Shown here: one piece after another, positions 4,367 to 16,792 of the stretch
Layout of the letters: each line of letters starts with the position of its first letter
Position numbering within the stretch: position 1 is the first letter of the stretch
From: an uncultured Prevotella sp.
GTDB taxonomy: Bacteria > Bacteroidota > Bacteroidia > Bacteroidales > Bacteroidaceae
Length of the DNA: 64,000 bases
Direction: 5' to 3'
NCBI GenBank assembly: GCA_946403845.1
Contig: CAMJBL010000001.1
Coordinates: forward strand, 108,605-172,604
The notes under the pieces: model-generated
What the model saw: only the letters and a program-made list of their open reading frames with translations
The model's database searches: none
Told to the model about the DNA's origin: nothing
Program-made: the position numbers and the translations under genes

Positions 4367-4684
4367 ATGACCAAGAGTGCAGCATTATCAAGAATCCGTC
4401 AGACGGCCACATCTACAATTCCAGATGGTGGCAAGGCGATTCTTTATGGCTCCAGGGCCAGAGGTGATGCCCGCAAGGATTCTGACTGGGATATTTTGAT
4501 CTTATTAGATAAAGATATTCTTGATCAGTCGGATTACGATAATGTCAGTTATCCCTTTGTCTTGCTTGGTTGCGATTTGGGCGTAGAAATCAATCCTATT
4601 ATGTACACCACAAAGGAATGGGAGTCATATCGCATCACCCCATTTTATGAGAATGTTGTTCGTGATGGAATAGTTCTGGTTTAA
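4367..4684 (+). CDS. MNT-type nucleotidyltransferase domain protein
   Basis: AILYGSRARGDARKDSDWDILILLD motif. Confidence 0.88.
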   Translation: MTKSAALSRIRQTATSTIPDGGKAILYGSRARGDARKDSDWDILILLDKDILDQSDYDNVSYPFVLLGCDLGVEINPIMYTTKEWESYRITPFYENVVRDGIVLV

Positions 4685-4844
4685 CAAACGAGACTTCTCG
4701 CTCCGCTTAGGACAAGAGCCCCATTTGGATTGGCAAGCGACTTGTTAAAGCGGAGTTTTTTTGTGTATAGGAGTAACAAAAGAGACGATTGTGCCCCTTC
4801 ACAAGCCTTGTGAAACTACTTTTTTACATTTTCTTCACAAAATA

Positions 4845-4877
4845 TTTGCAAAGTTCAGAAATAATTCCTATATTTGC
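4845..4877 (+). promoter_or_regulatory. Bacteroidetes-type promoter for the downstream ncRNA candidate
   Basis: TTTG 4845-4848, N20, TATATTTGC 4869-4877. Confidence 0.75.
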
Positions 4878-4881
4878 AACT

Positions 4882-5135
4882 GACTCTATGAGCCCGCAAG
4901 GGTGAAAGGGTCGAACTTATTGGAAAAAGGACGTTTACGAACGTTATCTTCGATGTGCTAATCTCGCAAATTAGGACTCTCTTCGAAGGAGCGCAACCGA
5001 AACGTCTACGTTGGGTGTATTGTACACTGCTACAATATCTCACGACGTGGGCTAACTCGAGTTGCTTGTCCTAAGAGAGAGGCGATGCGAGAGCCTGCAC
5101 ATGGGATAAGCGAGAAGTAGTGACTCCCACGTCTT
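4882..5135 (+). ncRNA. Unidentified structured RNA candidate (~255 nt)
   Basis: Follows a consensus promoter. Hairpins: GACTCT-atga-GCCC-gcaa-GGGT-gaa-AGGGTC; ACGTTtacgAACGT; CTAATctcgcaaATTAG; ATTGTacactgctACAAT; closing ACGTGGG (5045-5051)/CCCACGT (5126-5132) then CTTTATTTATT. No plausible sense ORF. Confidence 0.65.
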
Positions 5136-5376
5136 TATTTATTAACCTAAAAGAAAGCTGAAACTTGGGAGATCAATAGGCGGCTGACAATTGTCTATGA
5201 AATATATAATGGAGATTTCAAAAGCCTTATGGACCGAAAAAGGCTGTTTTGATTATAATATTATGTTTACTTCTGTATCATCATTATTAAAATAATAAAT
5301 GAAGTCCTATTCCTTTTTATTTTGTTAATAATTGGTATGTACATTTCAATATTGAAAATTAATAAATGATATTAAC

Positions 5377-6684
5377 ATGAGAAGAAATAAATATTGGCCA
5401 CTTATAATAGTACTGATCTTGGGCGCAATTATGGCTCCTATTATAATCCGTTGTGATGATGGTAAATATATAGTCTCCTATGATGCTATACCTCCTGTTA
5501 AACCATATAAACCATCCAAGGTTAAGCTATATATCGAGAATTCAGGTAGTATGGATGGGTATATGTTTGATGGATCAGAACTTAAAGATGCTGTCTATAG
5601 CTATGTTAGTGGTTTATCAACACATTCTGATACTACGGAATTATTTTTTGTTAATAGTAATGTTTATAGTGTCAAAGCTCCATTGCACGATTTTATATAT
5701 GCGATGTCACCAACTGCATTCCACAGTTCCCCTGGCAATAAGGCAAACACTGATATTGCAGATATTTTCAGCATGGTTCTTTCTCAAATAGAAGAGAATA
5801 GCGTTAATATACTTGTTACTGATGCAATATTAGATTTACCTTCAGGATCGACAGTCTTCTTTCGTACAAAGCAGACTCAAATCAAGTCTATATTTGAAAA
5901 CTATTTAAAGGTGAATCCCAATTTTGCTATAGAGATTTTCCGTATGTTATCACGGTTCAATGGCAAATATTATTATACTGGAGGCAATGTCACTTTATCG
6001 GATCAACAACGGCCATATTACATGTTTGTCATGGGTGACAAGCAAGCGTTGAGTTCAGCAAACGGCATTGTCGCAAAGAGCCTGATACAACATGGAGTTG
6101 AAGATTACTATGCATATTCTTCATATACTCAGGTTCCTTTTGTGGTAGAGAATAAGAAAAAAAAGGGAAATGGTGGGTATTTTGAAGTGCGGTTACAACA
6201 GAAGTCTGTTCCTGTCATAGCAAAGGTAGACCTTCAGTATACTCTTCATGAAGATGAGTTTCTAATTGAACCCAATTTGTATGCTATTGCGTTTGGAGAT
6301 GATAGCATTAAGATTAAAACCATTAAAGAGTTGCCAAAGGAGCCAGAATATACACATGCATTTACTTTGTCATTGCCAGAAAATGCAACAGAAGGAAGTG
6401 TAAACCTGTATTTCTGTCCTCCACCTTATCCGCTTTGGTTGGAAGACGCTAATGACGATTTATCCGATGCTTCAGTAGCAACGACCATGAAGACAACGGG
6501 TATTAAATACGTTGTCGAAGGTATATCTGATGCATTTGCGAGTACATGCGTAAATAATCCAGCACCATTTACAAATGGAGACAAGGTATATACTCCTAAG
6601 TCTAAAGCTGACAAGAAGCCTATTCCTGTGTTGGCGGGGTGGAAATTCCGTTTGGACAAGAAAGCTAATTATAAAAAACCTTAG
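5377..6684 (+). CDS. Membrane-anchored vWA-like protein (degenerate MIDAS)
   Basis: N-terminal TM segment; KLYIENSGSMDGYM resembles DxSxS; NILVTDAILD. Confidence 0.7.
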   Translation: MRRNKYWPLIIVLILGAIMAPIIIRCDDGKYIVSYDAIPPVKPYKPSKVKLYIENSGSMDGYMFDGSELKDAVYSYVSGLSTHSDTTELFFVNSNVYSVKAPLHDFIYAMSPTAFHSSPGNKANTDIADIFSMVLSQIEENSVNILVTDAILDLPSGSTVFFRTKQTQIKSIFENYLKVNPNFAIEIFRMLSRFNGKYYYTGGNVTLSDQQRPYYMFVMGDKQALSSANGIVAKSLIQHGVEDYYAYSSYTQVPFVVENKKKKGNGGYFEVRLQQKSVPVIAKVDLQYTLHEDEFLIEPNLYAIAFGDDSIKIKTIKELPKEPEYTHAFTLSLPENATEGSVNLYFCPPPYPLWLEDANDDLSDASVATTMKTTGIKYVVEGISDAFASTCVNNPAPFTNGDKVYTPKSKADKKPIPVLAGWKFRLDKKANYKKP

Positions 6685-6712
6685 AGGAAAATTAATAAAT
6701 AATGTTTAATAT

Positions 6713-7138
6713 ATGGATAAAATCTATACTTTACTCTCTGGCCTATATGGTGACGAACTCCATGATTTCCTTCTTGGAGTCAATGGTATGAATGGCACTA
6801 ACCTTTTTAATGTCATGTTTGTAGTACTACTTATTATTTCTATGTTGTTAACTCCTTTCTTTTATTATAAGCTTTGGGATAGGGCAACATGGGCGAGCAT
6901 CGGAAAATGGTTGGTTATGCTGTTAGTAAATGCCACCATTGTATTCTTGGTTAATGTAATTTGGTTGCATTTTCTTTCTGATAAGATGGTAGATGAAGAG
7001 GGTGAGGCTCTTTCTATAGGTCTTTCTAATATAATAGGATTTGGTTTTGCATCCGTTATTCTTGCTTCGTTATTATTTTCCGTTGCCTCGTTGGGTTGGA
7101 AAACGCAAAGTGTTAATTGTCCACACATTCCATTATAA
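6713..7138 (+). CDS. Small multi-pass membrane protein
   Basis: Hydrophobic helices NVMFVVLLIISMLLTPFF, WLVMLLVNATIVFLVNVIWL, ASVILASLLFSVASL. Confidence 0.8.
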   Translation: MDKIYTLLSGLYGDELHDFLLGVNGMNGTNLFNVMFVVLLIISMLLTPFFYYKLWDRATWASIGKWLVMLLVNATIVFLVNVIWLHFLSDKMVDEEGEALSIGLSNIIGFGFASVILASLLFSVASLGWKTQSVNCPHIPL

Positions 7139-7150
7139 ATCTCAGATGTT

Positions 7151-8578
7151 ATGTCAAAATTATATGTATTTGCAATAGGAGGAACAGGCTCAAGAGTCCT
7201 GCGCTCCCTCACAATGCTTGCAGCTGCAGGTGTAGATGTACATGCGAATGAGATAGTTCCAATTATCATTGATCCTGATGCTTCAAATGCAGATCTAACT
7301 CGTACAGTCACTTTAATGAATTGTTATTCTTCAATTCGTAAAGGTATTGAGTTTAGTGACACTAACGAAACTACTTTCCTTAGGCCTGAAATTAGTCAGT
7401 ATGTGCAAAACTATACTTTACACATTAAAGACACAGAGAATAGGCGCTTTGACCAGTTTATAGAATATGCTTCCCTTTCTTTGGAAAACAAGGCTATGAT
7501 GAGCATGTTGTTTTCGGAGAAAAACCTTAATGCACAGATGCAGGTAGGATTTAAAGGTAATCCAAATATTGGTAGCGTTGTATTGAATCAGATTGTTTCT
7601 TCACCTCAGTTTGATGAGTTTGCAACTTCATTTGCCGCAGGCGACAAAATATTTATAATAAGTTCAATTTTTGGTGGAACAGGTGCAAGTGGATTCCCAT
7701 TGTTATTAAAGACTCTTCGTGATAAAAATGCATCATTCCCCAACCATAGTATAATTAATAATGCTGAAATTGGTGCTATTACGATTCTTCCATATTTTAA
7801 ATTGCAACCATCTGAGCAAAGTGAAATAGATTCATCTACATTCATTTCAAAAGCTCGTTCAGCTTTGGCTTATTATGAAACAAATGTAGTTGGGAATAAT
7901 TCCATTAACGCGTTATATTACCTAGCCGATGATGGTAATATATACGAAAATAATGATGGAGGTAGTATGCAGCAGAATCCTGCTCATATTATTGAATTTG
8001 TAGCAGCAACAGCTGCAATTAATTTCATGAATAATAATTATTCAGGTAGATATATGAATCTTGAGTTTGGTATTCAAGATATTAATGATAATGATGGAGT
8101 CACTTTTGGTAAATTCTATTCAGAAACATCGGGTTTACTGATGAAACCTATGACTCAGTTGGCTTTGATGGCAAATTGCCTTCAGGAAGGAAGTCCTCAA
8201 TATAATTTGGTGACCTCTAAGTCTTTGGCTGCAAACTTAACTATATGTGCTAAAGAGAGTTTGTATACTACACCATATTTCAAGGAATTAAAGGCTTTCC
8301 TTGTAAAATACAAAGAGTGGCTTAAAGAGTTAGATGATAATAAACGGTCTTTAAATCTATTTAATTTGGAGTGTGCTGACAAACCTTTTGAATTGCTTAC
8401 TGATCGTAAATCACACCAAGGTGGATTCTTAAGCTTCGAAAAGAAAGATTATGAGGCTTTTTACGGTGCTCTTAATAAAGCTGCTCAAGAGGTACGAGGA
8501 GATAAAGCGTCTAGCTTATTTATAGAGATGTTCTCGCGAGCAACAAAGAAATTGGTAGAAGAAAAACTTAAAATGTAA
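7151..8578 (+). CDS. Tubulin/FtsZ-superfamily-like GTPase
   Basis: N-terminal YVFAIGGTGSRVLRSL, then IISSIFGGTGASGFPLLLK resembling the tubulin GGGTGSG signature loop. Confidence 0.75.
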   Translation: MSKLYVFAIGGTGSRVLRSLTMLAAAGVDVHANEIVPIIIDPDASNADLTRTVTLMNCYSSIRKGIEFSDTNETTFLRPEISQYVQNYTLHIKDTENRRFDQFIEYASLSLENKAMMSMLFSEKNLNAQMQVGFKGNPNIGSVVLNQIVSSPQFDEFATSFAAGDKIFIISSIFGGTGASGFPLLLKTLRDKNASFPNHSIINNAEIGAITILPYFKLQPSEQSEIDSSTFISKARSALAYYETNVVGNNSINALYYLADDGNIYENNDGGSMQQNPAHIIEFVAATAAINFMNNNYSGRYMNLEFGIQDINDNDGVTFGKFYSETSGLLMKPMTQLALMANCLQEGSPQYNLVTSKSLAANLTICAKESLYTTPYFKELKAFLVKYKEWLKELDDNKRSLNLFNLECADKPFELLTDRKSHQGGFLSFEKKDYEAFYGALNKAAQEVRGDKASSLFIEMFSRATKKLVEEKLKM

Positions 8579-8583
8579 ATGTT

Positions 8584-11500
8584 ATGTCAAAGATATTTAG
8601 ATTAGGTGAAGGCCCCCGCACTTATACTGATTGGTCCGAATCGCCTTCTTTCCCATATGACAGTAATGCTAGAAAGAAGATACAAGATCCTGATGGCGCA
8701 ACTGCTGAGAAGGAAATTACGTCAATTCCCTCTCCATTCGCTCGTATTGATTTGATAAAGAATGCTTTTCGCGAGGTTTGTGATAATCAAGACCTTGATG
8801 GTCATACAATCTTCCATAAGATGGTGTCTGATGCGCTAGATATTGGTGAGATATTCTTTAATATCGATCGTTTCAATGATAAAGTTGAGATCATTACCTG
8901 GAATCCTGCAAGTTGTATTAAGGAGATGAAAAACTCTGATCTTGATGGTCATCATTATTTAGGTGATGTCCTTGATAAGTATCTTGATTCTGATGCTAAG
9001 GCGTATAACTTTGACTCCATGCAGAATATATATATTCTCAATTATAAGAATGGTATAAAAGAACTGAATATTATAGGCGCTACATCCCCAGCCACGTTAT
9101 TCTTCTCAAATGCCAACGATTTAAGCTACCTTTCGGATGAACTGTCGTTTGAGTTAGATAAACCATTTGATAATAAATATAATCCCCTTTATAAGCGAGA
9201 TTCTCAGTACGTAAAAGCACTATTCCTTTACAGAAAAGTTTATCCAGGCTTTGCTACTGCTTTTCGTGAATTGAATGATTATTTCGACTTGACATTCCAA
9301 AAGCTATCTCCCGAGCTTCGTAATGAAATTCGTGATTTGAGCGCAAATGATGTGGGGAGTTATGGAACGATTTCTGTTACTCGAGGTAATCTAAACGACA
9401 TTGTTGAAGTGCTAGGACAGAATCTATTCAAATTAAAAGGTACGACCTCAATTGAGAATTCGGACTTCCTGATAGATTCAGCTAAGTGTGATGACCAGAT
9501 ATTGGTATTACCTATTGATAAGGGTAATACGTATAGCGACTTGATTTATGTGACAGAGAGATGGGGTGAAGAGAACTTTGCGCAAGCATATGATAGGAGG
9601 GAAATATCTGAAAGAACCCTTCCTTCTCGTGGTGATAAAAAGCCATATCTTACTATAAGCGATTTCTTGGAGCCGGAAATTATACGAGTGCCATACTTGT
9701 TGAATGAAGATGATTTCTATACGGCTCATAATCGTAAGAATGGTGAGGAAGCAACTTTCTTACTACCACTCAAGCCGCTATTCTTTAAGTATTTTAGCGT
9801 AAATGATATCACCGAAAAAAATCTGATAACAGTTACAACGTTGTCAAGATCTTCTGCTGAGGTGACATTGCGCATACCTATTCGTAGCAAGCAACAACCC
9901 AAGCAAATAGTGTATTCACGTACATATTATGATTCAAATGCTGACCCAGACGAAAAAAACAACAAGGGAGCTGTTGTCGAGATGAAAATCTCTGGATTTG
10001 TTATGCCAAATGTACGTTTTATGCGTCCAGAAGAAGCAATCTATAAAGTTGGTTTGGTAATGATGAACGCCAATCGATATATGCTTGATTTCTATAAAGA
10101 CGATCAGATTATCAGTGCAATTACACCTTCTGTAAGACAAGGTGCGAACGAACTTGCTAAGAATGCTGTATATACAATAGAAAAAAGCAACTTTGATTAC
10201 ATACGAGTGTCATCAAATACAACAGCACATAGTGTAATTATACCAAGATTTAAGTCTCAGACAATTAACAATGAGTTTAAGTTTGCTGTAGATCTTGGTA
10301 CATCAAATACTCATATCGAGGTTTCTATGAATGGACGCGAATCAGAAGCTTATGGTTATCAGAAGTCTCCTGTAAGCATGTTCTTCTTGCAAACGTTTGA
10401 TGATCATGGGGCCCCTAAGAATCTCCAGATTGAGAATAATATTATGGAAAAGGACATGTTGCCAACTGTAGTTGGTAAAAATTCTGATTTCCGTTTCCCA
10501 ACTCGGACAATATTGTCTTGTGCAAAGAGTATTGACTGGTCTGCAAATTTGAATTGCTTTGAAATGCATAATTTACCATTGACATATGGTAAACGTGTAG
10601 AATTATCATATAATGATTATCATTATGATATCAAGTGGGGAACTGATGAAAAAGATAAAGAAATTCTACGTTGCTATGTCGAAGACCTATTGTTCATGCT
10701 TCGTACTAAGGTTGTTGCTGAAGGTGGAGACCTCACAAAGACCAAGTTGACTTGGTTCTTCCCAATTAGTATGCCGATAGGAAGAAAGGAAAAGCTATCT
10801 AAGATATGGAATGAGTTGTATTATAAGTACTTCCCAGGTGCAGTTAATGGCATTGAAGCGATGTCTGAATCATATGCTCCTGTTCTTCATTATCGTAATG
10901 AGAATACAACGGTTTCAAATCTTATCAATATTGATATTGGTGGTGGTACCACTGATGTTGCATACTTTGTAGATAAAGAGTTGTCTTTTGTCACATCATT
11001 TAGGTTTGCTGCTAATGACATCTTCCAGGATGCTTATGCGAAGGATACAGTTCACAATGGAATTGTTGATGCATATAAGGATAAAATTAAGGCTGTATTG
11101 GAATCGAATTCTGCAGATGCAGCAGTGCGTGACGTATTATCAATCTTTGATTCAGACAACAATCGCCATCCTGCAAATATGGCGTCATTCTTATTCTCAT
11201 TGCGAGACAATCAGAATTTGAAGAATGTGAATAAAAATAAGATTGATTTTAATGAACTCCTTCAAGATGACGAGCAGTTCAAGATTGTCTTTATATTATT
11301 CTATACTGCTATTATTTACCATATTGCTCAAATTGTTAAGCTACAGCAATTACCATTACCTCGTCATATATCATTAAGCGGTAATGGCAGTAAAGTAATT
11401 AAAATTATCTCTACAGATAGTTCGATCCTTTCTTCATATACGAAGAAAATCTTCGAAATAGTTACTGGACAGAGTTATGATGGTAATCCTCTTGGTATCA

Positions 11501-11925
11501 TTGGTCTTGATAAAGAAGGCTCAAAAGAGTCTACATGCAAAGGTGGAATTTTAGGAACAGAGCCAACAGGAAATAAGGAAAAACAAGTAGTCCTGAAGTC
11601 TAATGGTGATGAACTGATGGCTGATGTTGTATTTGGCGCTGTTGATGATGCCTATAAGAGAATGGTAGAGCAAAGTGCAGGTAAATTCTTTGAATTCTTC
11701 TTCTCGCTGTGTTCGAAGTATAATATGAAGGACAACTTCGGAATTACAAATAATAGCATTAGTACTGCTAAAAAGTATTGTGATCAAGACCTTGCTACGT
11801 TTATAAACCGTGGTTTGGAACAGCAGCGTAAAGACTACGAGGATTCTGATCCTCTACGCGAGACGTTGTTCTTCTATCCATTGAAGGGCTTCTTGAGTAA
11901 CCTTATTAACAATTTAAATGAGTAA
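8584..11925 (+). CDS. 1113-aa protein with C-terminal Hsp70/actin-like ATPase domain
   Basis: FAVDLGTSNTHIEVSMNG (phosphate-1), NIDIGGGTTDVAYF (phosphate-2), HISLSGNGSKVIKII (adenosine-like). Confidence 0.8.
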   Translation: MSKIFRLGEGPRTYTDWSESPSFPYDSNARKKIQDPDGATAEKEITSIPSPFARIDLIKNAFREVCDNQDLDGHTIFHKMVSDALDIGEIFFNIDRFNDKVEIITWNPASCIKEMKNSDLDGHHYLGDVLDKYLDSDAKAYNFDSMQNIYILNYKNGIKELNIIGATSPATLFFSNANDLSYLSDELSFELDKPFDNKYNPLYKRDSQYVKALFLYRKVYPGFATAFRELNDYFDLTFQKLSPELRNEIRDLSANDVGSYGTISVTRGNLNDIVEVLGQNLFKLKGTTSIENSDFLIDSAKCDDQILVLPIDKGNTYSDLIYVTERWGEENFAQAYDRREISERTLPSRGDKKPYLTISDFLEPEIIRVPYLLNEDDFYTAHNRKNGEEATFLLPLKPLFFKYFSVNDITEKNLITVTTLSRSSAEVTLRIPIRSKQQPKQIVYSRTYYDSNADPDEKNNKGAVVEMKISGFVMPNVRFMRPEEAIYKVGLVMMNANRYMLDFYKDDQIISAITPSVRQGANELAKNAVYTIEKSNFDYIRVSSNTTAHSVIIPRFKSQTINNEFKFAVDLGTSNTHIEVSMNGRESEAYGYQKSPVSMFFLQTFDDHGAPKNLQIENNIMEKDMLPTVVGKNSDFRFPTRTILSCAKSIDWSANLNCFEMHNLPLTYGKRVELSYNDYHYDIKWGTDEKDKEILRCYVEDLLFMLRTKVVAEGGDLTKTKLTWFFPISMPIGRKEKLSKIWNELYYKYFPGAVNGIEAMSESYAPVLHYRNENTTVSNLINIDIGGGTTDVAYFVDKELSFVTSFRFAANDIFQDAYAKDTVHNGIVDAYKDKIKAVLESNSADAAVRDVLSIFDSDNNRHPANMASFLFSLRDNQNLKNVNKNKIDFNELLQDDEQFKIVFILFYTAIIYHIAQIVKLQQLPLPRHISLSGNGSKVIKIISTDSSILSSYTKKIFEIVTGQSYDGNPLGIIGLDKEGSKESTCKGGILGTEPTGNKEKQVVLKSNGDELMADVVFGAVDDAYKRMVEQSAGKFFEFFFSLCSKYNMKDNFGITNNSISTAKKYCDQDLATFINRGLEQQRKDYEDSDPLRETLFFYPLKGFLSNLINNLNE

Positions 11926-11927
11926 TT

Positions 11928-12659
11928 ATGAAATTGATTCAAGAACATAGCTTACTGATAATTGCAATATTATTAGTATTGCTTATAATATCTGTTCTCT
12001 TTTATTTTTTAAGGGAACGTAATTCTCGTGATGATTCTAGTGGTATCTCGCGTCGAGGATCAGTTTCAAAAGAAAAATTTAATCTCGTTTTTAATCAGAG
12101 AAATGAGGAATCTCAAGAAAAAGTGAAATTTGAGAATCTTTATAATGATTATAGAGAAAAATATGAGAAGGCATGTGTTGAAATCGGTAAACTCAAAAGC
12201 AGAATAGATGAACTAACTCGAGATTATAACGAGTTGAGTGAGTTATATAACAAAGATACTGCTCCTTATGATGTCGATGAGAAATCAGAAGGAGCAAATC
12301 CTATAGTTGACCATTCTTTAGAGAGTGAAACGACTCAAGGAGCGATAGTGGGGCAAAAAATAAAGTACGCATCTTTCCCTCGCTCTGCTGGTAACACCAT
12401 ATATTTCTCTGATCTGACAGATAAACTTGTAGATGATTCTTATTTTGAAATAAGACTCTCTGGTGATACAGACAAAGCTTCTTTCAGACCATTGGATTTT
12501 ATGAAAATTCGCAACTATGATCCTGCTATGGCAGCAATACTTACGGATGGCGTGAAACCTAATGTCGCATCTACTGTACTTGGTGTAGAACCAGGAGATG
12601 TGTGTTTAGAAGGCAATGATTGGATTATTAAAAAATTGGCAAAAGTAAAATTGGCATAA
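11928..12659 (+). CDS. N-terminally anchored coiled-coil protein
   Basis: HSLLIIAILLVLLIISVLFYFL TM helix followed by a heptad-rich region. Confidence 0.75.
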   Translation: MKLIQEHSLLIIAILLVLLIISVLFYFLRERNSRDDSSGISRRGSVSKEKFNLVFNQRNEESQEKVKFENLYNDYREKYEKACVEIGKLKSRIDELTRDYNELSELYNKDTAPYDVDEKSEGANPIVDHSLESETTQGAIVGQKIKYASFPRSAGNTIYFSDLTDKLVDDSYFEIRLSGDTDKASFRPLDFMKIRNYDPAMAAILTDGVKPNVASTVLGVEPGDVCLEGNDWIIKKLAKVKLA

Positions 12660-12660
12660 A

Positions 12661-14274
12661 ATGGATTTGACATTTCCCATGATTCTAACCATTACTGTTG
12701 TATTAGTAGTGGTTTGTTTTCAGTTATATAAATTCTTTGAAAATCGCAAAAGAATTAATTTGTTCAGTAGCATTTTTGCTGGACAAGATTATGATTTGGT
12801 AAGAAATGAAAGTGAGCTGGTAGTAGGTATCACAGGTTCTGGTAATGAAATCTTTGATGATATAAAAAGTTCAATAAATGGCTATCTTAAAGGTACAAAA
12901 GGTACTGAGGTTGATTTTCAACTACTAAAAGATTCCGTTGATCGTCATTGTGATATGATTGAGGATGAGATCAATTCGCAGATGCCTTTGCCTTTGTACT
13001 TTGGACTCGCAGGTACTATGGGTGGTGCAATTATTGGGCTTATGGCTTTAGTGTGGGGTGATGCAATCCTTCAGTTGATGGCCGGTGATTTAGGTTCAGC
13101 TGGGAATAATGCAGCGAACAATATCAACGATCTGCTATGGGGCGTTGCCATTGCCATGCTAGCTAGTGCTATTGGCATTATATTGACATCATTAAACACA
13201 GTTTATTTTAAAAACAAAAAACTGCAAGAAGAAACAGAAAAGAACATATTTCTTGCATGGATGCAGTCGCGTGTTTTGGCTGCTGTTCCTTCTACTGTTT
13301 CTCAGCAAATGAAGGCCTTGGTAAACCAATTGGTCACTTTTAATAGGACCTTCAAATCAAATACTGATGCAATCACTACAACTCTAGACAAAGCAAAAGA
13401 AGTCTACAAATCGCAAGCTGATGTTATCGAAGAATACAAAGCTATTGACTTGGAGGCTATTGCAACTGGAGTAAGTAGTATTATGCGTCGATTAAGAAGT
13501 AGCACTGAAAGCTTAGACAACTTTACTCAATATCTGGATAAGGTCCATGATTATTATGAGAAAATGCAAGTCTTTGCAGAAAACCTGAATAAGGAGTCAG
13601 AGAGAATTGGCATACTTCAGGATATTCAGAGGTTCTTCCAATCTCACAAGGGCGTTATTGCAGAGGAAACAGCTGATGCTCATAAAAACATCCAGGAGTC
13701 AATAAAAGCGGTGCAGGAATCTACTGAACAGCAAGTTAATGAGACTTATGCTGCCCTTACTGAACAATCGCAGAAACTAAAGAATGCTGTTGACGAAAAT
13801 AACAAACAGTTTGAAGAACTCTGTCAGGATATGCGTAATAAGTTCAAGGAACAAATGGACGAAATGCCTGAAGTTGCACAAAGCTTGAAGAAACTTGAAG
13901 ACATACCTAATCAATTAGAGGCTGTAGTTTCAAAGATTACCCAATCACAAGAACGTCTTGCATTGGATTTCCTTGCAGCAGCAAAACAGATTGTAGATAC
14001 TGTTGGCAAGGAAAAGAAAGATCCATTTATTATTAAAGATGGTTTTAATTCTAACCAAGTACCAGTTAAAGAGATCATTCCTTCAAGCCTCAAATGGATA
14101 ATTGTTGGTGGTATAATCGTAATGTCTATAGCTACAGTAGGGAATACGGCTTATAATATATGGAAGGGTGAAATAGCCCCAGTCCAGATTGTACAGGAAG
14201 AGGAACTTGTAGATAGCGTTGCAGCTACGATTCCTATACAGGTTGTTGACAGTACCCTTGTTCAGAACCCATAA
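12661..14274 (+). CDS. MotA/TolQ/ExbB-superfamily protein with long cytoplasmic coiled-coil (ZorA-like)
   Basis: LPLYFGLAGTMGGAIIGLMALVWG and NNINDLLWGVAIAMLASAIGIILTSLNTVYF, then ~270 residues of coiled-coil and a C-terminal TM. Confidence 0.75.
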   Translation: MDLTFPMILTITVVLVVVCFQLYKFFENRKRINLFSSIFAGQDYDLVRNESELVVGITGSGNEIFDDIKSSINGYLKGTKGTEVDFQLLKDSVDRHCDMIEDEINSQMPLPLYFGLAGTMGGAIIGLMALVWGDAILQLMAGDLGSAGNNAANNINDLLWGVAIAMLASAIGIILTSLNTVYFKNKKLQEETEKNIFLAWMQSRVLAAVPSTVSQQMKALVNQLVTFNRTFKSNTDAITTTLDKAKEVYKSQADVIEEYKAIDLEAIATGVSSIMRRLRSSTESLDNFTQYLDKVHDYYEKMQVFAENLNKESERIGILQDIQRFFQSHKGVIAEETADAHKNIQESIKAVQESTEQQVNETYAALTEQSQKLKNAVDENNKQFEELCQDMRNKFKEQMDEMPEVAQSLKKLEDIPNQLEAVVSKITQSQERLALDFLAAAKQIVDTVGKEKKDPFIIKDGFNSNQVPVKEIIPSSLKWIIVGGIIVMSIATVGNTAYNIWKGEIAPVQIVQEEELVDSVAATIPIQVVDSTLVQNP

Positions 14275-14289
14275 ATGATTTTTTGAAGT

Positions 14290-14910
14290 ATGAAGAAATC
14301 AAAAGAGTCTTTCTTTTGGACAAGTTATTCCGATTTGATGACAAGCCTATTCATTATCATGTTGGTCCTTTTTGTCTTGGTAATAGTGCTGCTTAACAAA
14401 CGAATGGAGGCTACTATCATAGAGCTTGAGGATATAAAGAAGGTGGAAGCATCAACTCGTGACCTCGAAGGTAAATTCTTTACTTACAATAAGGAATATG
14501 AAAAGTTTATTCTTAATATAGACTGTCAATTTCCCGTAAGCAAGTATGATATAGGACTTTTAAGTGATACTACAAGGTCTCAGTTGATGGACGCAGGTCA
14601 ACAAGTAAAGGATTTCTTAGAGAAACATTCAGAGAATCAATATCTGGTTATTGTTGAGGGGCAGGCTTCTGCTAATTCCGAAGCGATGATGGAGTTTAAT
14701 TACAATCTTTCATATCAACGAGCTTTGAGCCTTATTAAGTTTTGGGCAACAAATCCAAATGTTAAATTTTCAGAAAAGAATTGCGAACTCCAAATTGCCG
14801 GTAGCGGAGATGGTAGACTCAGCGCGAAAACTATGCGTGATTCTGTAAATGAAAAGAATCAGAGGTTTCTAATTTATATTATACCTAAGAATATCATCAA
14901 AAAACAATAG
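14290..14910 (+). CDS. MotB/OmpA-family protein (ZorB-like)
   Basis: FWTSYSDLMTSLFIIMLVLFVLVIVLL with the MotB-type Asp at the TM start; C-terminal IVEGQASAN...NLSYQRALSLIKFW...NQRFLIYIIPK OmpA-like. Confidence 0.82.
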   Translation: MKKSKESFFWTSYSDLMTSLFIIMLVLFVLVIVLLNKRMEATIIELEDIKKVEASTRDLEGKFFTYNKEYEKFILNIDCQFPVSKYDIGLLSDTTRSQLMDAGQQVKDFLEKHSENQYLVIVEGQASANSEAMMEFNYNLSYQRALSLIKFWATNPNVKFSEKNCELQIAGSGDGRLSAKTMRDSVNEKNQRFLIYIIPKNIIKKQ

Positions 14911-15870
14911 ATGCGAAGGAAAAAAGTCATAATCGTATTGTTACTTATAATCTCGCATGTCTCATCATTGGCTCACGCCTCTTGGGAACAGCATGCAGAT
15001 GATATGTATGAGGTATTAGGATTGGAGAGAAACGAAAAGCTTACAGATTGGATGAGATTTGTAAGCTCTGTTCTGATTGATAATTACAATGCCGAATATG
15101 CTTTTTCTGATAACGGGGAACCATTCGATTTCTATTTATATCTAAAAGAAAAATACCCAGAGTTTCAGTGTAAACACAGATTACTATTTCACTGGGGCTA
15201 TAATTCGAGGCCTTGGTCTACTTATCTTCAGAATAAAGTTCTCGGATATGGATGGTCTGATACAATGATTAGAGACTTTCAGGCTGACCTAATTGCAGAA
15301 CAAAAACGTAGAAATAGTTTCGCGAATAATTATACGGAGAATCTTTTTGGTTTTGCGCATGGAGGAAAAGAGGCGCGCGTGGCAAGGGTTATTATTTCTG
15401 TTGTATATGATGTCCATTTATTAGGAGATTATGAGCCTGATAATATTGATCTGGAAGGATTGCAGGATATTGGGTCTGTGGTCGGAGATATAATCAACAA
15501 TATAAATGCATTGGATAAAAGAACTGGGGCACAGCTGACCAAACTGTTACAAAAAATTTCTCAAAATTCCAATTGTGACGTACAAGACAAAGCTGCCGCG
15601 TTGTTGAGGTTGTTGAAAGAGCATTTTGGAGTTTTTCTAAGAACTGCAGATAACGGAACAATTGAAGAACATTTAAACGCACAGGGATTTTTTTTTGTAG
15701 ATTATAGTGCAAAACAGCCTAGTTATGAAAAAAAAACAACTCAGAAGGATTTTACTGATAAGAAAACTCGAAATAAAACTTTTAAAAAGGGGGGAGGCAT
15801 TGGCGTAGTTATAATTATTTCATTAATAATACTAGTTGTGTTATTAGTTATTCTATTTAAGAAAAAATAA
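14911..15870 (+). CDS. Exported/anchored protein of unknown function
   Basis: Signal peptide VIIVLLLIISHVSSLAHA and C-terminal TM GVVIIISLIILVVLLVILFKKK. Confidence 0.75.
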   Translation: MRRKKVIIVLLLIISHVSSLAHASWEQHADDMYEVLGLERNEKLTDWMRFVSSVLIDNYNAEYAFSDNGEPFDFYLYLKEKYPEFQCKHRLLFHWGYNSRPWSTYLQNKVLGYGWSDTMIRDFQADLIAEQKRRNSFANNYTENLFGFAHGGKEARVARVIISVVYDVHLLGDYEPDNIDLEGLQDIGSVVGDIINNINALDKRTGAQLTKLLQKISQNSNCDVQDKAAALLRLLKEHFGVFLRTADNGTIEEHLNAQGFFFVDYSAKQPSYEKKTTQKDFTDKKTRNKTFKKGGGIGVVIIISLIILVVLLVILFKKK

Positions 15871-15886
15871 GATTACTCGAAGATGT

Positions 15887-16792
15887 ATGATGAGTTTGAG
15901 TGATATATATATATGTGTATTAAATAAACTTGATGGTTTTAATGAAAAAAACATTCTTAAAGCCATAGACTTAGCTAATAATGATGTCGTTGAAACGCTT
16001 GATGATTTCATTGACTTTATTAATTTCAATATTGAAGATTGTAGATTTGAGGATATCACTCAACCTATTAATAAGGAAACTATAAAGAAAGTTGTTGAGA
16101 AAGTTTTGAAAAACAAAGATAATATAGTACATTATGTAAATCCATCAGATGGTAGTTTCCCCAAATGTTTGCCTATTGAAGAAATAGAGGCGCCTTCTCT
16201 TTTGAAATATAAGGGGAATTTGGAGAACCTTAAACGCAAAACAATACTAATAACAGGATCCCCCACTGTATCAGACAATGCTAGGTTAGCTTCTGAATAT
16301 ATTGGGAAGGTTTTGGCTTCAGGCGGCTATAACATATTGTCTACTTTTTCAAATGAATGTGAAGAAAAAGCAATAAAGGGATGTAAAGAAGTCAAGGGGG
16401 TAAGTACATTCTTTTTGCCTCATAGTTTAGAACGGCTGACATCTGAAGAAATAGAAGTTATTCATAGCGAAATCGATTCTGAACGCTCAATGATTATTTC
16501 TGTTGATGATTATGCTCTGGCAAATGCTGAATCAATTGAAAAAGCTTGTAAATATTCAATGGCACTTGCTGATTGTATGATTATTCCCCAAATTAGTAAT
16601 ACTGATTATATCTTTGACCATGTTAAGAAGTTTTTGAAATCAGACAAACCAGTTTATCTTGTAAGATACAAAACAAGAACTATTAAAGAGTACAATTGTA
16701 TAAAAGCTCTTGAATCATTAGGGGTGATGTATTTGTCTAGTAATACTGTGTTAAAGCAGATAAAAGATACGGTTGGAGAGGTGTTGATATGA
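15887..16792 (+). CDS. DprA/SMF-like Rossmann-fold protein
   Basis: PSLLKYKGNLENLKRKTILITGSPTVSDNARLASEYIGKVLASGGYNILSTFSNECEEKAIKG resembles DprA; next start overlaps by 4 bp. Confidence 0.7.
   Translation: MMSLSDIYICVLNKLDGFNEKNILKAIDLANNDVVETLDDFIDFINFNIEDCRFEDITQPINKETIKKVVEKVLKNKDNIVHYVNPSDGSFPKCLPIEEIEAPSLLKYKGNLENLKRKTILITGSPTVSDNARLASEYIGKVLASGGYNILSTFSNECEEKAIKGCKEVKGVSTFFLPHSLERLTSEEIEVIHSEIDSERSMIISVDDYALANAESIEKACKYSMALADCMIIPQISNTDYIFDHVKKFLKSDKPVYLVRYKTRTIKEYNCIKALESLGVMYLSSNTVLKQIKDTVGEVLI

Follow-up and report, generated by a model that had tools for sequence, protein, structure and literature searches.

Directly 5' of an operon on the + strand of the window (the whole stretch of 64,000 nucleotides of DNA that was analysed, from a gut-type bacterium) lies a predicted folded leader RNA of about 300 nt. 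The operon (5377-16792) opens with a lipoprotein-like protein of 435 aa that has no match in Pfam, PADLOC or NCBIfam, and the weak matches among its products are to tubulin/FtsZ-like, FtsA/Ppx-like, ZorA-like, ZorB-like and DprA-like proteins, the ZorA-like and ZorB-like ones being membrane proteins. It looks like an undescribed Zorya-related conflict system; a related operon stands behind the leader RNA at another locus, L059. A 32-codon open reading frame before the first long gene, with its ATG at the spacing typical of first genes in the family, is a possible leader peptide or gene remnant (Table 1).

Table 1. Leader RNA, its predicted pairings and the adjoining reading frames, in window positions
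Feature	Span	Strand	Segments	Basis
Promoter, TTTG-N20-TATATTTG	4845-4876	+	TTTG 4845-4848; 20-nt spacer; TATATTTG 4869-4876	Bacteroidota consensus; sequence
P0, 5' hairpin at expected transcription start	4882-4912	+	GACTCT (4882-4887)..GCCC-gcaa-GGGT..AGGGTC (4907-4912)	Sequence; minimum-energy (MFE) fold
P1	4929-5007	+	4929-4936 with 5000-5007, GGACGTTT/AAACGTCY	98% of cells paired; both-side changes at 3 pairs
P2	4947-4989	+	4947-4951 with 4985-4989	87% of cells paired; both-side changes at 4 of 5 pairs
P8 pseudoknot	4953-5102	+	4953-4957 (ATGTG) with 5098-5102 (CACAT)	Both-side changes at 5 of 5 pairs
P3 hairpin	4959-4973	+	4959-4962 with 4970-4973; loop 4963-4969 CTCGCAA	89% of cells paired; both-side changes at 3 of 4 pairs
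Kissing loop K	4963-5091	+	4963-4968 (CTCGCA) with 5086-5091 (TGCGAG)	99.5% of cells paired
P7 pseudoknot	4977-5079	+	4977-4983 (CTCTCTT) with 5073-5079 (AAGAGAG)	Both-side changes at 7 of 7 pairs
P4 hairpin	5018-5037	+	5018-5024 with 5031-5037	84% of cells paired; both-side changes at 4 of 7 pairs
P5	5044-5133	+	5044-5051 with 5126-5133	100% of cells paired, 32-sequence alignment
P6	5064-5111	+	5064-5071 with 5104-5111	98% of cells paired
PC hairpin	5081-5095	+	5081-5083 with 5093-5095	94% of cells paired
U-tract after P5	5134-5144	+		Conserved over about 10 nt in essentially all 138 copies
P9 hairpin region	5157-5181	+		Anchored pairing test, 135 homologues
Short ORF, 32 aa	5197-5295	+		ATG at family-typical first-gene spacing
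First long operon gene, 435 aa, lipoprotein-like	5377-6684	+		Sequence

A first-pass annotation of this DNA had described a perfect TTTG-N20-TAnnTTTG promoter ending at 4877; the promoter is there, with its end one base earlier. TAnnTTTG occurs within 140 nt upstream in 124 of 137 homologues, compared with a mean of 11 and a maximum of 17 of 137 in shuffled sequences, and TTG-N17-22-TAnnTTTG in 90 compared with 1.4. The GNRA-capped stem reported just behind it is likewise present as P0, capped by GCAA and included in the minimum-energy fold. Most homologues do show a 5' stem (GACTC/GGGTC, for instance), and a bulk test for it discriminates poorly, with a mean of 6.6 bp compared to 6.1 in shuffles. 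Extended promoter regions recur nearby at 78-96% identity at L059 (9782-9844, 11107-11177, 13790-13859), L068 (2523-2591) and L076 (8959-9048), which suggests that these promoters are of one type and have additional conserved sequence in common. Further upstream, a long hairpin at 4700-4765 (ctccgctt..aagcggag) followed by TTTTTTT probably serves the upstream 131-aa gene as terminator. The complementarity once noted between 4693-4716 and two segments of the RNA (5065-5074 and 5109-5118) exists, and is exact over 11 nt in the first, but it is not conserved, homologues doing no better than shuffles, and we take this antisense stretch to belong to the terminator hairpin of the upstream gene.

The RNA had been taken for an unidentified structured RNA with its own promoter 5' of the operon, lacking the marks of RNase P, tmRNA, SRP or a group II intron, and a direct match to an Rfam family had been named beforehand as one result that would overturn this. 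In an Rfam 15 scan of the window at the gathering cut-off no family matches the RNA, and none of 20 divergent homologues reaches any family's gathering cut-off on it; a scan of 4400-5600 at relaxed thresholds gave chance matches alone, none of them credible on the RNA, and the Rfam covariance models for 6S, SRP, tmRNA, RNase P and group I/II introns do not match either. A literature search for a named equivalent found none. In single-sequence folding the window RNA has an energy z-score of -4.3, with 0 of 200 shuffles equally low. Judged by these comparisons the candidate is a member of a large family absent from Rfam, and its conserved unit reaches to about 5181, the earlier bounds of 4845-5135 being slightly short. 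Structured leader RNAs are of course a known kind; it is the architecture and the distribution that appear to be new. To our knowledge, Bacteroidales have yielded few large structured RNAs so far.

We collected 138 distinct copies. A BLASTN search of 149 related genomes yielded copies with 67-84% identity, and some of the genomes contain several. A covariance model made from 32 of these copies was used in large scans that scored the best five candidates per genome: of the 393 Bacteroidales genomes sampled, 78 carry the RNA, representing 44 of 206 genera, and it was found in no Bacteroidota genome sampled outside that order. With fuller scoring a genome holds up to nine copies; the window's own genome, which is 80% complete, has two. 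Among the matches listed in a pattern scan of named genomes are Prevotella, Xylanibacter ruminicola, X. brevis, Bacteroides congonensis, Muribaculaceae and Candidatus Cryptobacteroides, and named isolates with the RNA include Xylanibacter brevis ATCC 19188, Bacteroides congonensis and Prevotella sp. tc2-28. The plasmid and phage records searched contain no relative, two pattern matches in viral contigs being discarded as chance, with the rest of the RNA missing there. Two loci carry damaged copies: at L073 unrelated hairpin-rich sequence takes the place of the 3' half, and at L076 the 5' part of the RNA alone is left.

The fold derived from the alignment has two hairpin domains, P1-P3 and P5/P6/PC. 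Three contacts lock the two to each other: P7, P8 and a kissing loop between the P3 loop and the PC loop, which bears the kissing sequence. The pairings occupy separate bases and can therefore all coexist, and it appears that the apical loops of the two domains dock over their full length. P7 and P8 vary in sequence in nearly every copy with their complementarity kept, and the kissing loop occurs in matched variants such as CTAGCA/TGCTAG, CTTCGCA/TGCGAAG and CTGGTA/TACCAG. In the 3' domain, the changes in P6 are mostly A-U/G-U exchanges on one side, and those in P5 are one-sided changes among GU, AU and GC. The closing pair ACGTGGG/CCCACGT (5045-5051/5126-5132) seen in the first pass is part of this last helix, which has 8 bp in full, closes the 3' domain and is terminator-like. 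The apical part of P4 grows to more than 100 nt in some homologues. Missing from the self-complementary stems described earlier are the key helices, which are pseudoknots. Single-sequence folding was set aside as an account of the full fold for the same reason, as was a pairing of the CTCG between P5 and P6 with the PC loop, where complementarity fails across variants.

The covariation that was to be looked for among homologues is strong. Over the whole structure 151 cells show changes on both sides, compared with 56.5 +/- 7.8 in shuffles (0 of 500 as high), a contrast that is partly built in, as the structure was drawn from the same aligned sequences; sliding the structure by one to three columns abolishes the signal. 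In a permutation test that sets each copy's own strands against those of other copies, for P7, P8 and the kissing loop 0 of 5000 permutations equal the complementarity within copies, with 0 of 3000 doing so in 59 independent sequences that were not used in defining the helices. RNAalifold, unaided, recovers most of the nested part (P1, P2, P3, P5, P6 and PC). On the modelled strand there are 143 G-U cells compared with 49 A-C cells, and this excess identifies it as the RNA strand.

Downstream of P5 the T-rich stretch pointed out earlier proves to be a conserved U-tract, with a T fraction of 0.57-0.96 over its first ten positions and about 0.25 thereafter in the 138 copies. A GC-rich 8-bp helix with a U-tract directly after it has the layout of an intrinsic terminator, and we predict P5 and the U-tract to form one that surrounds the remainder of the 3' domain; about 75 nt lie inside P5, which is unusual for a terminator. 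Beyond the U-tract, P9 presents GG or GGG and further bases that can pair with the 3' strand of P5 and with the flank on its 5' side. In the window GGGAG (5167-5171) is complementary to CTCCC (5124-5128), and the P9 stem itself is weak here; elsewhere the matches are GATTCCC/GGGAATC (L103), GTTCCC/GGGAAC (L110), GCTTCTCCC/GGGGGAAGC (L050) and GTGTGATTCTC/GGGAGTCGCAC (L084). Some copies have no anchored match. When the pairing is anchored, 0 of 5000 permutations match the observed value in 135 homologues, and the same holds with one copy per distinct 7-mer (n=51, 0 of 5000); an earlier, loosely anchored test had given a weak effect (6.59 compared to 6.19).

The CCC at 5126-5128 is used both in P5 and by the P9 loop, so that the top of P5 and the P9 pairing are mutually exclusive, the competition being limited to the top 3 bp of P5. 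Alternative exclusive pairings, as in a cis-regulatory leader, are supported across the family, P5 and the P9 pairing alike. Since P9 sits past the U-tract it cannot block termination like a classical antiterminator: it must act after read-through, or else the U-tract is no terminator.

The position of the RNA is that of a leader, between the promoter found in 124 of 137 homologues and a start codon on the same strand, located at most 450 nt further on in 135 of 138 copies. The first start codon after the core lies at a median of 73 nt, mostly 50-80 nt (135 copies). What follows is very diverse, with 58 singletons among 135 first genes, and by a rough criterion, one that carries no background control, 79 of the 135 first proteins appear to be secreted. 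The genes include BspA-type LRR, dockerin, FGE-sulfatase/vWA, caspase-like, HerA-like and tubulin-like proteins, LytTR, FHA and small HTH-like proteins, and CXXX-repeat radical SAM peptide systems. They share no common function, and a ligand is therefore not suggested by them.

The leader RNA is probably a hitherto unrecognised RNA switch that serves genes of many kinds. The reading we favour, with moderate confidence, is a leader switch that acts in cis and has a terminator built into it. As we infer it from the fold, the covarying and exclusive P5 and P9, the place between promoter and start codon and the conserved U-tract, transcription would begin at hairpin P0 and the nascent RNA would form its two hairpin domains, to be locked by P7, P8 and the kissing loop. 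P5 and the U-tract would then terminate, so that a share of transcripts ends near 5140. In transcripts that read through, the P9 loop near the start codon may pair with the 3' strand and 5' flank of P5, opening the top of P5 and keeping the leader in its other state; this would influence translation, or how stable the open state is. The balance, and with it gene expression in cis, would be governed by a signal that either binds the locked core or destabilises it; a metabolite, a second messenger, a protein or temperature are candidates.

An own promoter, a terminator-like end and several paralogues per genome would also suit a small RNA acting in trans, one that stops at the U-tract and has its target mRNAs elsewhere, its position before genes being incidental, and the FopS sRNAs of Bacteroides are likewise multicopy (PMC11697453). 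FopS is in these respects a close comparison, a multicopy Bacteroidales RNA with its own promoters and a terminator. It consists of a single-stranded 5' stretch with an R1 seed and a terminator hairpin, has susC-like mRNAs as its targets in trans and is deposited as a family in Rfam (PMC11697453). The leader RNA, unlike FopS, is pseudoknotted and lies before unrelated genes; we rejected its identification as a FopS sRNA on its fold, the 5' region being taken up in P0-P3, and on the missing Rfam match. The compact fold leaves no conserved free seed. Same-strand start codons at a near-constant distance, and a P9 that lies past the end of such an sRNA and yet covaries with it, make action in trans less likely, and we consider it unlikely, if worth keeping in mind.

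The 5' position would also fit a processive antitermination element, an RNA that stays on RNA polymerase and allows read-through of operon terminators, for which the EAR element, put RNAs and LoaP/UpxY-type systems are the comparisons. Large operons do follow in places (about 11-14 kb in the window; a 2394-aa gene at L070), but many copies stand before single short genes and the element has a terminator-like U-tract at its own end, which leaves this explanation improbable. A self-cleaving or otherwise self-processing RNA might be imagined from the compact pseudoknotted fold and its many invariant unpaired bases; however, no known ribozyme family in Rfam matches and there is no sign of a cleavage site, so we give it very little credence. 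That the unit is portable and precedes very different genes could suggest that what is conserved is DNA and not RNA, such as a recombination cassette or the end of a mobile element. The fixed promoter, the compensating changes and the G-U tolerance of one strand speak against this, and we find it barely conceivable.

Other structured RNAs offer partial parallels. GOLLD, ROOL and OLE are much larger than the leader RNA. They are, like it, elaborate conserved bacterial RNAs, and they form homo-oligomers (PMC12286853); the leader RNA differs in having no Rfam match. The HMP-PP riboswitch (thiS motif), a terminator-embedded aptamer, has its terminator within the conserved fold as here (eLife 2019, PMC6478431), whereas the leader RNA has another gene context and taxon, no Rfam match, and a P9 hairpin past the U-tract that also covaries. 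Candidate structured RNAs, some from Bacteroidota, were reported by Weinberg et al. 2010 (PMC2864571) and by Fremin and Bhatt 2021 (PMC8040213). One of the latter, HMP2_1881, of 108 bp, lies near radical SAM genes and was expressed in all 13 assembled cases (PMC8040213); going by this description, it might correspond to part of the leader RNA.

Bacteroidales are major gut and rumen bacteria, and the leader RNA occurs in a fifth of the order's sampled genomes, with unusually strong covariation that extends to a kissing loop and two pseudoknots and with an evident two-state element beside the start codon. Should it act as a sensor, a single signal would connect surface proteins, peptide systems and defence-like operons. 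We propose tentatively, and rate at somewhat short of an even chance, that it represents a widespread new class of RNA sensor of undescribed architecture through which a single signal reaches surface proteins, CXXX-repeat peptide systems and defence-like operons in gut Bacteroidales. The architecture in question, two hairpin domains, two helices flanking a kissing loop and a P5/P9 toggle, would be previously undescribed. The covariation also supplies exact mutants of the RNA.

The CXXX-repeat radical SAM peptide genes preceded by the RNA are at L064, L075, L043, L117, L119, L120, L131, L147, L163 and L183. In the operons tested at such loci the matches are to TIGR04115 and TIGR04119, with TIGR04117 below cut-off, and a TatC-like protein lies near several of them. 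At nine other loci (L080, L084, L089, L132, L136, L141, L144, L146 and L157) the first gene encodes a conserved HTH-like protein of about 70 aa, one of the nine weakly matching HTH_26.
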